Of a stretch of 64,000 nt of DNA, positions 6,230 through 59,140 are shown in pieces. Both the position numbers and the translations under genes were made by a program. Every line of letters starts with the position of its first letter. The stretch's first letter is position 1. The stretch spans positions 4,638,976-4,702,975 of the forward strand of contig CP136069.1 in NCBI GenBank assembly GCA_032622095.1, written 5' to 3'. Under the pieces are notes generated by a model. The model saw only the letters and a list, made by a program, of their open reading frames with translations. It was not told where the DNA came from and did no database searches. Origin of the DNA: Siphonodentalium dalli (taxonomy: Eukaryota > Mollusca > Scaphopoda > Gadilida > Siphonodentaliidae).

Positions 6230-6510
6230 ACCCTTTGAGTGCCAGGTCGATTTTTGTATCAACCCATATACCCTGTGCCAATGCATTCTCTTATATATGC
6301 GAGTCGACCATAGGTCGCCTCGCATATATAAGAGAATGCATTGGCTTAACAATTTTTTATCATGTTTTTTAAATAAATGTTTCTTACAATTTTTAGGACA
6401 TAAAATAAAAAAACATCCATTACCCTGCAGGGAGCCCCACACATATAAAGAAGCATATAGAAGAGTGTCGTCTGCTCATGTTTGTCTGGGGCTCTGTATG
6501 GGTGAAAGGG
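6230..6510. mobile_element. TTAA MITE with hairpin module, 281 bp
   Basis: Flanked by TTAA at 6226-6229 and 6511-6514. The ends are ACCCTTTGAGTGCC and GTATGGGTGAAAGGG, sharing the inner CCCTTT/AAAGGG. The hairpin module occupies 6277-6345. The right TTAA is shared with the next repeat, so the two elements abut. Confidence 0.8.
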
Positions 6511-13040: not shown

Positions 13041-13050
13041 TGTAAATTAA

Positions 13051-13434
13051 CCCTTTACCCAAAAAACCGGCCAAATAAAGCTTCAACAGCCTAAAATATC
13101 TTCGGTCTGTCTCAATAGAACCATACAAATATGGATATCATTGGAATCGGCTCCTTGACCACATTGTGATAGTCACAGTTATGCCCTGTGCCAATGCATT
13201 CTCTTATATATGCGAGTCGACCATAGGTCGCCTCGCATATATAAGACAATGCATTGGCCTAAAAAAAATCTTTTTTTAACACTTTTTACCATTTTTTCTT
13301 ACATTCTTTAACAATTTTAGAGAATTTTTAATGTTTTAAGCCAATGCATTCTCTTATATATGCGAGGCGACCTATGGTCGACTCGCATATATAAGAGAAT
13401 GCATTGGCACAGGGCCCTTCTGTTGGATAAAGGG
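13051..13434. mobile_element. Full-length 384-bp TTAA MITE, two hairpin modules
   Basis: Flanked by TTAA at 13047-13050 and 13435-13438. The left end is CCCTTTACCC; the right end (GGATAAAGGG) is slightly diverged. Hairpin modules are at 13190-13258 and 13340-13408. It has the same length, in opposite orientation, as the copy at 56733-57116. Confidence 0.9.
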
Positions 13435-13579
13435 TTAACCTTATTTTGTACATATTGTGCTGGTTTTATCTATTTCCAGATGACAAACAATTACAAGTAA
13501 AGAAGATGCATGCATCAGATCCCCCATGAACTATTTTACAAGATTTAATCACGTATATTTGGAAAGTATTATAAATTAA

Positions 13580-38712: not shown

Positions 38713-39099
38713 TATGTGACCTGCCATATCAAATCCAGTCGTAAGTTGGGATTTTTTTACCCTGTGCCAATGCATTCTCTTATATATGCGAGTCGACCAT
38801 AGGTCGCCTCGCATATATAAGAGAATGCATTGGCCTAACAATTTTTTATCATTTTTTAAAAATAAATGTTTCTTACAATTTTTAGGACATAAAATAAAAA
38901 CCATCCATTACCCTGCAGGGAGCCCCACACATATATAGAAGCATATAGAAGAGTGTCGTCTGCTCATGTTTGTCTGGGGCTCTGTATGGGTGAAATTATA
39001 AAATTGTTAAAGAATACAAGAAAAAATTATTAAAATTGTAAAAAATTGTTAGGCCAATGCATTCTCTTACGACTGGATTTGATATGGCGGGTCACATAT
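38713..39099. mobile_element. MITE with GCCATATCAAATCCAGTCGT ends carrying the hairpin module
   Basis: Terminal inverted repeats of about 34 bp: ATATGTGACCTGCCATATCA and TGATATGGCGGGTCACATAT, each continuing into AATCCAGTCGTAAG or its inverse. The hairpin module is at 38766-38834 and a partial third arm lies at about 39053-39069. The interior shares GAGTGTCGTCTGCTCATGTT with the TTAA MITE at 6230-6510, but the termini are unrelated to it. Confidence 0.82.
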
Positions 39100-42975: not shown

Positions 42976-42989
42976 TCTCACTTTATTAA

Positions 42990-43340
42990 CCCTTTCATGA
43001 TGGGAGCTGCGCTGGTGCAGCATTAAAGATCATGTGACAGTGCATTCTCTTATATATTCAATTCTCCCATGGGGAACCTCGCATACATGTATATAAGAGA
43101 ATGCACAGGCTTTCAAGGTAAATATTGTTAAGTCAATAAATATATAAAAGGGATGGGATGACAAGTGCTGCCACATAATTAACATCCTCTCCCCATCCAC
43201 TGGATTACAAGGCCAAGGTAAATATTGTTAGGCCAATGTATTCTCTTATATATATGAGGCTCCCAATGGGAGACACATATAAGAGAATGCATTGGCACAA
43301 GGTTTTCTCAAAATTTCTGGAAGCTCTAGTCATGGAAGGG
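42990..43340. mobile_element. TTAA MITE (CCCTTTCATGA ends), two hairpin modules
   Basis: TTAA at 42986-42989 and 43341-43344. Ends CCCTTTCATGATGGGAGCTG and GCTCTAGTCATGGAAGGG. Hairpin modules at about 43035-43110 and 43232-43296. Same layout as 51085-51333. Confidence 0.85.
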
Positions 43341-43425
43341 TTAACGTTTACATTCTTGAGTTGATGGATTCGCTGTGATATTTTGAGTAATGAATTCAGT
43401 TCATTCCAGTGTTTTTCTTTTTCAG

Positions 43426-50831: not shown

Positions 50832-51084
50832 GGAACTACTCGTCAAGGAGTATGTAAGGCCAATAAAAATAAATTGCTCGATTTACATCCAACTTTTTCA
50901 GAAAACTGGGGCGGGATAGCGTATTTTATTTTTTATATTTTATTCTTCCTAACATAAATGTACATGGAGAGTTCTAGATATTGAAGCAGTATCCTATCTT
51001 ATATATTACAAAGTGATTTAGATTGTCCCTATTTGACCAAAATAGACTGATTAATGGATCATTGAAATGTAATTTGATGATTAA

Positions 51085-51333
51085 CCATTCCATGACATGA
51101 GCTTCCTGATTTTTTCGAAAACCCTGTGCCAATGCATTCTCTTATATATGCGAGTCGCCCATAGTGCGCCTCGCATATATAAGAGAATGCATTGGCCTAA
51201 CAATATTTACCTTAATCTTGTAAGCCAGTGCATTCTCTTATATATGTGAGGCTCCCTTTGGGAGACTCGCATATATAAGAGAATGCACTGGCACAGGGTC
51301 TTTAATGCTGCACCAGCTCCCATCATGAAAGAG
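51085..51333. mobile_element. TTAA MITE, 249 bp, two hairpin modules
   Basis: TTAA at 51081-51084 and 51334-51337. Ends CCATTCCATGACATGAGC and GCTCCCATCATGAAAGAG. Hairpin modules at 51128-51196 and 51224-51292. Confidence 0.88.
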
Positions 51334-51530
51334 TTAAGGCATGAGAAAAAAATTTGCATAACAGATATTCAAATAAAAAAATTGAGGAGGGGACTAAAAA
51401 AATAGGGTCGGGAGGGGATGTAAATCTAGCAATATTTTTATATTGGCCTAATAAAGAAATGGTTAATTGTTAATGGATGCTGATCAATGCCTTCATATCA
51501 AGAGGGCAAACACTGGGAGATTGCTAAAAC

Positions 51531-56470: not shown

Positions 56471-56531
56471 GTTTTAAGCAGTCTGGCTTGTCAACAAATT
56501 ACAATTTCTCTTTAGAAGTGAATTATTTTTG

Positions 56532-57348
56532 AATATCTGGCAAGTCAAAAGTGGCAGAGATAAGGGTTTATCACTTTTGCTTCCCAATGAGTTAACTTAA
56601 ACTCCTAAACATATCCTCCGAAATCACTAAACCGTTGGATCTCACAGTGAGAGGTCCTTGGGTGAATAGGGACATAGTTATGAGATTTAAAACTACTCCT
56701 CCCCCACCCCAAACACTTTAACCCCTTCTTAACCCTTTACCCAACAGAAGGGCCCTGTGCCAATGCATTCTCTTATATATGCGAGTCGACCATAGGTCGC
56801 CTCGCATATATAAGAGAATGCATTGGCTTAACACATTAAAAATTATCAAATTGTTAAAAAATGTAAGAAAAAATGGTAAAAAGTGTTAAAAAAAGTTTTT
56901 TTTTAGGCCAATGCATTCTCTTATATATGCGAAGCGACCTATGGTCGACTCGCATATATATAAGAGAATGCATTGGCACAGGGCATAACTATAACCATCA
57001 CAATGTGGTCAATGAGCCGGTTCCAATGATATCCATATTTGTATGGTTTTATTTAGACAGACCGAAGATATTTTAGGCTGTTGAAGCTTTATTTGGCCGG
57101 TTTGTTGGGTAAAGGGTTAAGACATATTTTTATTATTTTTATTATTTTTGAATATCTGGCAAGTCAAAAGTGACAGAGATAAGGGTTTATCACTTTTGCT
57201 TCCAATGAGTTAACTTAAACTCCTAAACATATCCTCCGAAATCACTAAACCGTTGGATCTCATAGTGAGAGGTCCTTGGGTGAATAGGGACATAGTTATG
57301 AGATTTAAAACTACTCCTCCCCCACCCCAAACACTTTAACCCCTTCTT
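56532..57348. repeat. Direct repeat of about 200 bp; one copy filled, one empty for a MITE
   Basis: 56532-56732 and 57148-57350 are nearly identical (AATATCTGGCAAGTCAAAAG to ACCCCTTCTTAA). In the first copy the closing TTAA is followed by the 384-bp MITE. In the second, TTAA is followed directly by GACATATTA, the sequence that follows the MITE in the first copy. Confidence 0.93.
56733..57116. mobile_element. Full-length 384-bp TTAA MITE, two hairpin modules
   Basis: TTAA at 56729-56732 and 57117-57120. Perfect ends CCCTTTACCCAACA and TGTTGGGTAAAGGG. Hairpin modules at 56759-56827 and 56907-56977. Same length and content as 13051-13434 in inverse orientation. TTAA duplication and C-rich ends suggest mobilisation by a piggyBac-type transposase. 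Confidence 0.95.
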
Positions 57349-57609
57349 AAGACATATTATTTGAGCTTTTGATTTCATGTTGGGTACTGATATATGGATT
57401 CCTGTGATCATATCTTTGACAAATTATCAGTTATAGCTAAACGCTATCGCCAAGGTATGGGTTAAACATCTGCCGATCATGATCGGCCTCTCGTCGAATC
57501 TCCATTCTACGAGCGACGTATACTATGGAAGTGTTTGCATCAAACACACCTATGGCAACAACCCATGCCATACGGGGCAGGGACATGTTAGAGTGAATGC
57601 AGTGGACCA

Positions 57610-57785
57610 CAGGGACCAGCCTAGAGGGCGACTTGGGATACAGGGACCAGCCTAGAGGGAGACAGGGACCAGCCTAGAGGGTGACTTGGGAGACAGGGAC
57701 CAGCCTAGAGGGTGACAGGGACCAGCCTAGAGGGCGACTTGGGAGACAGGGACCAGCCTAGAGGGAGACTTGGGAGTCGGGACCA
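57610..57785. repeat. About 31-bp tandem repeat with 22-bp short units
   Basis: GGGACCAGCCTAGAGGGCGA then CTTGGGAGACA, about seven copies, some lacking CTTGGGAGA. Confidence 0.9.
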
Positions 57786-58615
57786 AATAAGGGGATGGTT
57801 CAAAATCATGCCCCTACCCATCGCCGGGTGACACTTGAGAAACACTGATCACCCAGTTATCCAATCAACATGCAATTCTGTTGAGCGTCAAATTTTAAAA
57901 TGCGATTTTTGAAAATTGCAAATTTTCCAATCAAGCTTACTTTTTTGAAGTGTTTATAAGGCAATCAGTACAAAGAGATCCGAAAACTACTGCCTGAGTA
58001 ACAAGTGCAATGGCATGATGTGTATATACCCCCACCCCCTGAAAACTACTGCCCCGGGCAATGAAATGTTAGGAAGATGCCCATGGCATGGTGTGTATAT
58101 ATACATGTACCAACCTCCCCCACCCCAGACAATGGATTGTTTAGAAGGAGTTATGCCCATAATGTAATACACAGGTCCCAGCACAAATTTATCCCCACCT
58201 CATTATATTTAAAGCTGGGGACCTGTAAGTAATCTTACTCATTATGACCCAGTAAAAGTGATAACTCTGGTCAATAAGGCCAAACAAAAACAACCTGTGT
58301 TTAGGGTTTCCCTACCTACCCTAGAAAAAGGTGCCTACCCAAAACTTTTTATTGGACTGTAGACACAGATAAAAAAAATTTGCTCAGTGGGAAGGGCATT
58401 GAAAGGTATTTTACTCATTTTCAAACTTCCCCTTTAATTTGTATAAAAACGTTTAGAAGTTTTATTAGTCTAGTGCTCTGACTAATTCAAGATTAACAAT
58501 ATTTAGTATTGAACCGTTCAATTAATCTGAATTGTGAAGCTTTCTATTTTGGACAATGTAACCCTAAACACAGGTATTATTTTTGTTTGGCCTGAAAGGA
58601 TATGCTTTCGCAATG
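57786..58615. other. Spacer, no gene recognised
   Basis: Contains a diverged direct repeat (ATGCCCATGGCATG..TGTATATA near 58010-58140). Otherwise AT-rich with no supported frame. Confidence 0.4.
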
Positions 58616-58618
58616 TTA

Positions 58619-59140
58619 GCCCACCACCATACCTGGGCTGGGAACCATGCTTGTCCATCACCGTACCTGGGCCGGGAACAATACTAGCCTATCACCATAC
58701 CTGGGCTGTGACACATCTACCCCACCACCATACCTGGGCTTGGAACCATTTTAACCTATCACCATACCTGGGTTGGGAACAATTATTGCCCATCTCCATA
58801 CGTGGGAACCATGCTAGCCCATCATACCTGGACTGTGAACCATGCTAGCCCATCATCATACCTGGCCTGTGAACCATGCTATCCCATCACCATACCTGGG
58901 CTGTGAACAATGCTATTCTATCACCATACCTGGGCTGGGAACCATGCTAGCCTATCATCATACCTGGACTGAACGATGCTAGCCCATCACCATACCTGTG
59001 AACCATGCTAGCCTATTACCATACCTGGGCTGTGAACCATGCTACCCTATCACCATACCTGGACTGGGGACCATGCTAGCCTATCACCATACCTGGACTG
59101 AACCACGCTAGCCTATCACCATACCTGGGCTGTGAACCAG
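58619..59140. repeat. About 33-bp tandem repeat, about 16 units
   Basis: CATCACCATACCTGGGCTGT then GAACCATGCTAGCC, with many indels. The frame crossing it is repeat translation. Confidence 0.9.

Follow-up and report, generated by a model that had tools for sequence, protein, structure and literature searches.

The window, a 64,000-nucleotide stretch of the Siphonodentalium dalli genome (assembly GCA_032622095.1, contig CP136069.1, positions 4,638,976 to 4,702,975 of the forward strand), contains a filled and an empty TTAA site side by side. This pair, put forward in the original prediction, was seen both by direct reading and by a repeat search, which placed a 384-bp MITE (family F1; 56733 to 57116, forward strand) between two TTAA copies within a single copy of a tandemly paired ~210-bp repeat. 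The filled unit (56522 to 56732, forward strand; delimited by alignment to the second unit and by repeat families D4 and D6) opens with ATTATTTTT and ends in CCCCTTCTTAA, or in longer spelling CCTTCTTAA, with the left target-site copy of TTAA at 56729 to 56732. The MITE follows, then the right target-site copy (57117 to 57120) and GACATATT, which shares positions 57121 to 57140 (forward strand) with a T/A-rich junction between the tandem units. The neighboring unit (57141 to 57350; annotated to 57361 on the forward strand from direct reading and alignment) opens with the same ATTATTTTT and ends in CCCCTTCTTAA, followed by GACATATT. It is uninterrupted across CCTTCTTAA-GACATATT, and its matching TTAA (57347 to 57350) is empty and clean, without a footprint; copies that were never filled look identical. 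The units align over 211 and 210 bases with two substitutions and one one-base indel. The flank had been described as a sequence of about 200 bp present twice; the two units stood, while their start moved about 10 bases earlier and the sequence proved to be a dispersed repeat instead of a unique one. Just downstream of the pair are minisatellites at 57609 to 57800 and 58607 to 58998, with spacings of 22/9/31 and mostly 34 bp.

The pair does define the exact ends of the element, as had been claimed: the 14-base ends, CCCTTTACCCAACA, repeat each other exactly in inverted orientation, TTAA lies on both sides, and the tips are of the piggyBac type. A TTAA-containing 18-mer matched the window four times with up to three mismatches, whereas 100 shuffles gave 0.09 matches on average, and the remaining two of the four matches bound a second F1 copy (13047 to 13438, reverse strand) that has TTAA on both sides and the opposite orientation. 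The interior of the 384-bp element contains two palindromes arranged as a core. CCCTGT (56753 to 56758, forward strand) forms one outer edge and is followed by a near-perfect palindrome of 69 bp (56759 to 56827, forward strand; pair I2, with 33-nt arms that are 97% complementary and 3 nt between them), an A/T-rich spacer (56828 to 56906, forward strand), the reverse complement of the first palindrome with a few changes (56907 to 56977, reverse strand; 71 bp through a private AT insertion), and ACAGGG as the other edge (56978 to 56983, reverse strand). The F1-specific sequence outside the core, referred to here as the wrapper, includes a long right arm (56984 to 57098, forward strand). As single-stranded DNA, the element is predicted to fold at −118.9 kcal/mol, compared to −37.2 kcal/mol (standard deviation, 4.7) for 100 shuffles.

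Several features identify F1 as a probable nonautonomous piggyBac-type MITE. The element is 384 bp long, has terminal inverted repeats (TIRs) and a high copy number, and its longest overlapping ORF is 67 aa (table 11). The TTAA plus TIR pattern, with up to two mismatches, gave 54,485 + 54,557 = 109,042 matches in the genome (reversed control, 95 + 103 = 198), which, at two ends per element, would correspond to approximately 54,000 copies. The junction between the short arm and the core gave 27,162 + 27,276 = 54,438 matches (control, 0 + 0). The TIR and junction matches are consistent with approximately 54,000 elements, most of which have the core; in 20 F1 copies drawn from within 6 Mb of the start of contig C1, the palindrome arm matched in all 20 (these copies were chosen by exact TTAA ends and are thus uninformative on TTAA). 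The 39 genomic copies nearest to the window element were picked by the body of the element, independently of TTAA, and an end was counted as readable when its exact 10-mer was present. TTAA adjoins 69 of the 71 readable ends (78 in total) and is present on both sides in 30 of the 32 copies readable at both ends. The exact 10-mer is absent at one end in 7 of the 39 copies (L025, L027, L031, L032, L046, L048, and L058), and the two readable ends that lack TTAA belong to L030 and L039, one each. When the ends were recounted under a stricter bound on position, which costs L047 one end, the result was 68 of 70 ends and 29 of 31 copies. Both ends, CCCTTTACCCAACA, conform to CC[C/T]T, which is given as the piggyBac TIR hallmark in the coral MITE study discussed below (PMC2872659). 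TTAA duplication, CCCTTT tips, the lack of a transposase gene, and the high copy number are shared with piggyBac MITEs generally; the two long internal palindromes set F1 apart, as does the lack of a same-ended autonomous partner among the loci examined.

The genome was searched for possible partners of F1. PF13843 (piggyBac DDE) gave at least 128 match rows at 116 loci, 12 of which match as two separate pieces (of 649 candidates, 116 were scored), compared to matches in none of 14 control genomes. The F1 ends (TTAACCCTTTACCCAACA) were sought at 61 of the 116 placed loci, 12 (L009 to L020) with 1.5 kb of flank to either side and 49 (L100 to L119 and L130 to L158) with 1.2 kb upstream only. The F1 18-mer was found within three mismatches at none of these 61 loci, and the full transposase with the same ends for which the original prediction had called did not emerge among them. 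At four mismatches, the 18-mer matched L102, L133, L145, and L146, which form one family with ends like TTAACTCTTTACTCCCCATAAGCG; other piggyBac loci end in TTAACCCTTTATCTGCTATACGCG and similar sequences, and L015 and L020 match the F1 14-mer at two mismatches but lack TTAA. In a BLAST search of F1 pieces against the 61 loci (E value, 0.05), no arm matched; the sole matches were a 15-base piece of the A/T-rich spacer (L018 to L020) and the palindrome (L137 and L156, where other MITEs seem to lie nearby). Many transposase frames of several families are free of stops, for example at C6:127663242 (722 aa) and C1:161101192 (606 aa), and the genome may therefore host active piggyBac elements.

The repeat that flanks the MITE is itself abundant. 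Unit 2 matched 40 scored places among 2,277 candidates, of which two are the window units themselves. The motif of the empty site, allowing three mismatches at most, matched 947 + 963 = 1,910 times, the window site among them (control, 0 + 0). In all 13 of the other repeat copies examined (L002 to L008 and L180 to L185), a single unit was present within the fetched stretch and its TTAA was uninterrupted. The bases after TTAA are GACAAA in 12 of these copies and GACAGA in 1, compared to GACATA in both window units. Among the units read, GACATA occurs in the two window units alone, and it is therefore most likely that one repeat copy was duplicated locally at this locus. A distant copy (C6:208476678) matches the empty unit at 99% identity (209 bp, three mismatches) and is as close to it as the tandem partner is; thus, the argument for local duplication rests on shared bases and adjacency. 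The flank repeat (57141 to 57488 in the window; also L002, L004, and L180 to L185) ends in the palindrome GCCGATCRTGATCGGC, of which variants were seen, and then CTCTCG. CTRR is the end motif of rolling-circle elements, and the end of the flank repeat recalls such elements but lacks CTRR. An insertion hot spot at the TTAA of the repeat was considered and rejected: 11 exact CCCTTC-TTAA-TIR matches were found, including the window, and among the 10 matches elsewhere, the same upstream repeat is clear in two (L122 and L125) and possible in one (L121). Average TTAA occupancy would give approximately 5.6 filled sites for 1,910 sites, a rough figure based on the TTAA density of the window, and the comparison is limited to exact matches.

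In transposon annotation, a related empty site is a paralogous flank that lacks the element and thereby reveals its ends and target duplication. We consider it highly probable that the pair is an ordinary site of this kind, in which a piggyBac-type MITE would have entered the TTAA of one unit of a dispersed repeat that was duplicated locally and the TTAA of the other unit is empty; unlike in the usual case, the filled and empty copies lie next to each other in tandem. F1 itself would have moved by cut-and-paste, with a piggyBac transposase acting in trans. Kolobok elements, a different superfamily, also duplicate TTAA, and F1 could in principle belong there, as the TTAA duplication and the lack of a matching piggyBac locus (61 of 116 placed loci) would allow. 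This assignment is nevertheless quite unlikely, because the CCCTTT tips fit the piggyBac hallmark (PMC2872659) and because TTAACCCTTT or TTAACTCTTT lies near the transposase at several piggyBac loci of this genome. It is also very improbable that the pair is an assembly artifact in which two alleles of a single locus, one filled and one empty, were set in tandem. The two units do resemble two alleles, but at ~0.2 and ~0.6 kb they are shorter than usual long reads, the repeat runs on in normal order on both outer flanks, and the 13 other copies continue differently at the junction.

The original prediction had limited the history of the pair to duplication of the flank before insertion or precise loss from one copy. 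These two routes are not exhaustive, since the flank is dispersed, insertion and duplication appear to be of similar age, and unequal exchange is a third route. Set against the 39 copies nearest to it, the window MITE carries two private substitutions and a private 2-bp insertion in 384 bp; these 39 are the best-scoring copies, and a state that is private among them may occur in copies outside the sample. Of the differences between the units, the empty unit carries a G-to-A change (G in all 10 readable copies of the 13 others) and a C-to-T change that recurs in 2 of the 13, and the filled unit carries an extra C (in none of the 13). Because the private changes are comparable, insertion and duplication appear to be of similar age; dating their order by private changes gave no resolution, with two substitutions each, or ~0.5% in both cases. 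Precise excision from one unit, after insertion and tandem duplication of the filled unit, would leave the footprint-free TTAA that the empty unit has, and it is compatible with a MITE that is not clearly younger than the duplication (two private substitutions per 384 bp and two between the units per ~211 bp). However, a clean TTAA is equally the never-filled state, as in 13 of 13 other copies and 1,910 motif matches, and this history requires an additional event compared with the other routes, making it improbable. A single unequal exchange between a MITE-bearing and a MITE-less chromosome would yield the filled/empty tandem with neither excision nor prior duplication. In a highly heterozygous animal, two alleles could differ by three changes in ~211 bp, as the units do, both units open with ATTATTTTT, and the junction between them is T/A-rich; duplication before insertion fits these observations just as well, and we regard the exchange as possible but doubtful. 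The related-empty-site reading accommodates a pair made either by insertion after duplication or by such an exchange between filled and empty homologues, and excision would be unnecessary in both.

The pair is a tidy and ordinary proof of the ends of an abundant MITE; the palindromic core, which is common to families with different ends, is less ordinary. A 25-base arm of the palindrome matched the genome 217,712 + 217,061 = 434,773 times (control, 0 + 0), and CCCTGT plus the arm matched 119,508 + 119,269 times (control, 1 + 0). By word rules, 152 palindromes with a two-arm match were assigned to F1 (117), F2 (11), F3 (8), and F4 (2), with 14 unassigned; these numbers do not represent genome proportions, as most F1 entries come from loci picked as F1. 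The mean identity of the 69-base palindrome was 0.989 within F1 and 0.989, 0.983, and 0.930 between F1 and F3, F2, and F4, respectively, for 69-base palindromes only (other lengths were omitted) and with identity raised by the arm-match selection. The majority 69-nt string is identical in F1, F2, and F3, and F4, represented by two sequences, differs at one place. In the 20 F1 copies from contig C1, identity was 0.991 and 0.983 in the palindromes, 0.942 in the spacer, and 0.946 in the long arm; the choice of exact ends raises the values of 0.975 for the short arm and 0.963 for the right TIR segment. For these values, gaps were ignored, pairs with less than 60% overlap were dropped, and 136 to 190 of 190 pairs were kept.

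The other families differ from F1 in their ends. F2 has ends of the form GTGACCCGCCATATC..., with 9,778 + 9,699 exact matches to its junction with the core and 14,335 + 14,395 matches to its tips. F3 has the form TTAA-CCCTTTSAGTGCCAGG (core junction, 9,110 + 9,072 matches); its TTAA was read in a few copies (L081, L094, and L179), and TTAAACCCTTT is present instead in L096 and at window position 6277. F4, of the form TTAA-CCCTTTCATGATGGGAGC, is more diverged and was found at 42986 to 43344 of the window and in L080, with changed tips at 51081 to 51337 of the window. F2 probably makes A/T-rich target duplications of 4 bp and not TTAA, and TTAA flanks are consequently not common to all core-sharing families. 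Under the first rule, identical 4-bp flanks were present in 12 of 17 usable F2 copies (23 tried; 11 ATAT and 1 AAAT); with exact GTGACC/GGTCAC tips, 15 of 17 usable copies agreed (23 tried; 11 ATAT, 2 ATTT, 1 AAAT, and 1 ATCT), with disagreeing flanks in L176 and L177. ATAT equals its own reverse complement, and support for a duplication of 4 bp therefore comes from ATTT, AAAT, and ATCT (over both rules, flanks that are not self-complementary occur in L086, L087, L088, L163, and L169). The interior is thus common to families with different terminal repeats, as sampled in F1, F2, and F3. Core copies in F2, F3, F4, or unassigned elements also lie in the window at 1456 to 1524, 2231 to 2299, 6277 to 6345, 38766 to 38834, 43036 to 43296, and 51128 to 51292. 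In L092 and L099, double palindromes have no recognized wrapper; runs of T or of C/T lie beyond the core. The possibility that the core is itself a TA-duplicating element was rejected: the F2 and F3 junctions (TA-CCCTGT...ACAGGG-TA) fit, but F1 (GGG or CGG on one side and CATA on the other) and F4 (GA/TC) do not.

In searches of an open-license library of papers, no report recognized as describing this core came up. The closest precedent found is the CMITEs of the coral Acropora, which, in the account of Wang et al. (2010; PMC2872659), are short TTAA elements of ~100 bp, with CCCTTT tips in most families and an estimated ~1,600 copies in A. millepora. According to the same source, several CMITE families differ in their ends but have one strongly conserved internal region of unknown origin in common, with a shared interior of 75 bases; a filled and an empty allele were reported, and one derived family was formed by insertion (PMC2872659). 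The likeness thus lies in TTAA elements with CCCTTT tips and differing ends around a common interior. It is a likeness by description, and unlike the CMITEs as described there (PMC2872659), F1 is ~384 bp long and has ~54,000 copies, the shared part consists of two inversely oriented 69-bp palindromes, and F2, one of the wrappers, lacks TTAA flanks.

A speculative reading, which we hold to be rather unlikely, is that the core is a module taken up by unrelated families (F1, F3, and probably F4 with TTAA, and F2 with A/T-rich 4-bp duplications) that aids the multiplication of its carrier and is kept steadier in sequence than the wrapper. Such aid might act, for example, through a shared binding site for transposases or host factors or through hairpin-aided replication. 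The sharing of the core could have arisen by nested capture or by exchange between families, or it could reflect selection that acts on the core. What makes a MITE successful was left open in the Discussion of the CMITE study (PMC2872659); if the reading is true, one noncoding module that raises copy number under different transposases would offer a natural, testable case of MITE success.

Matches to the palindrome and TIR recur on contig C1 every ~11.2 kb and 14.5 kb at approximately 820,000 to 921,000 and 735,000 to 786,000, and this recurrence suggests long tandem arrays with embedded MITEs. Identical 501-base stretches at L096 (C1:4234825) and L097 (C1:5158231), 0.9 Mb apart, probably represent a recent duplication.
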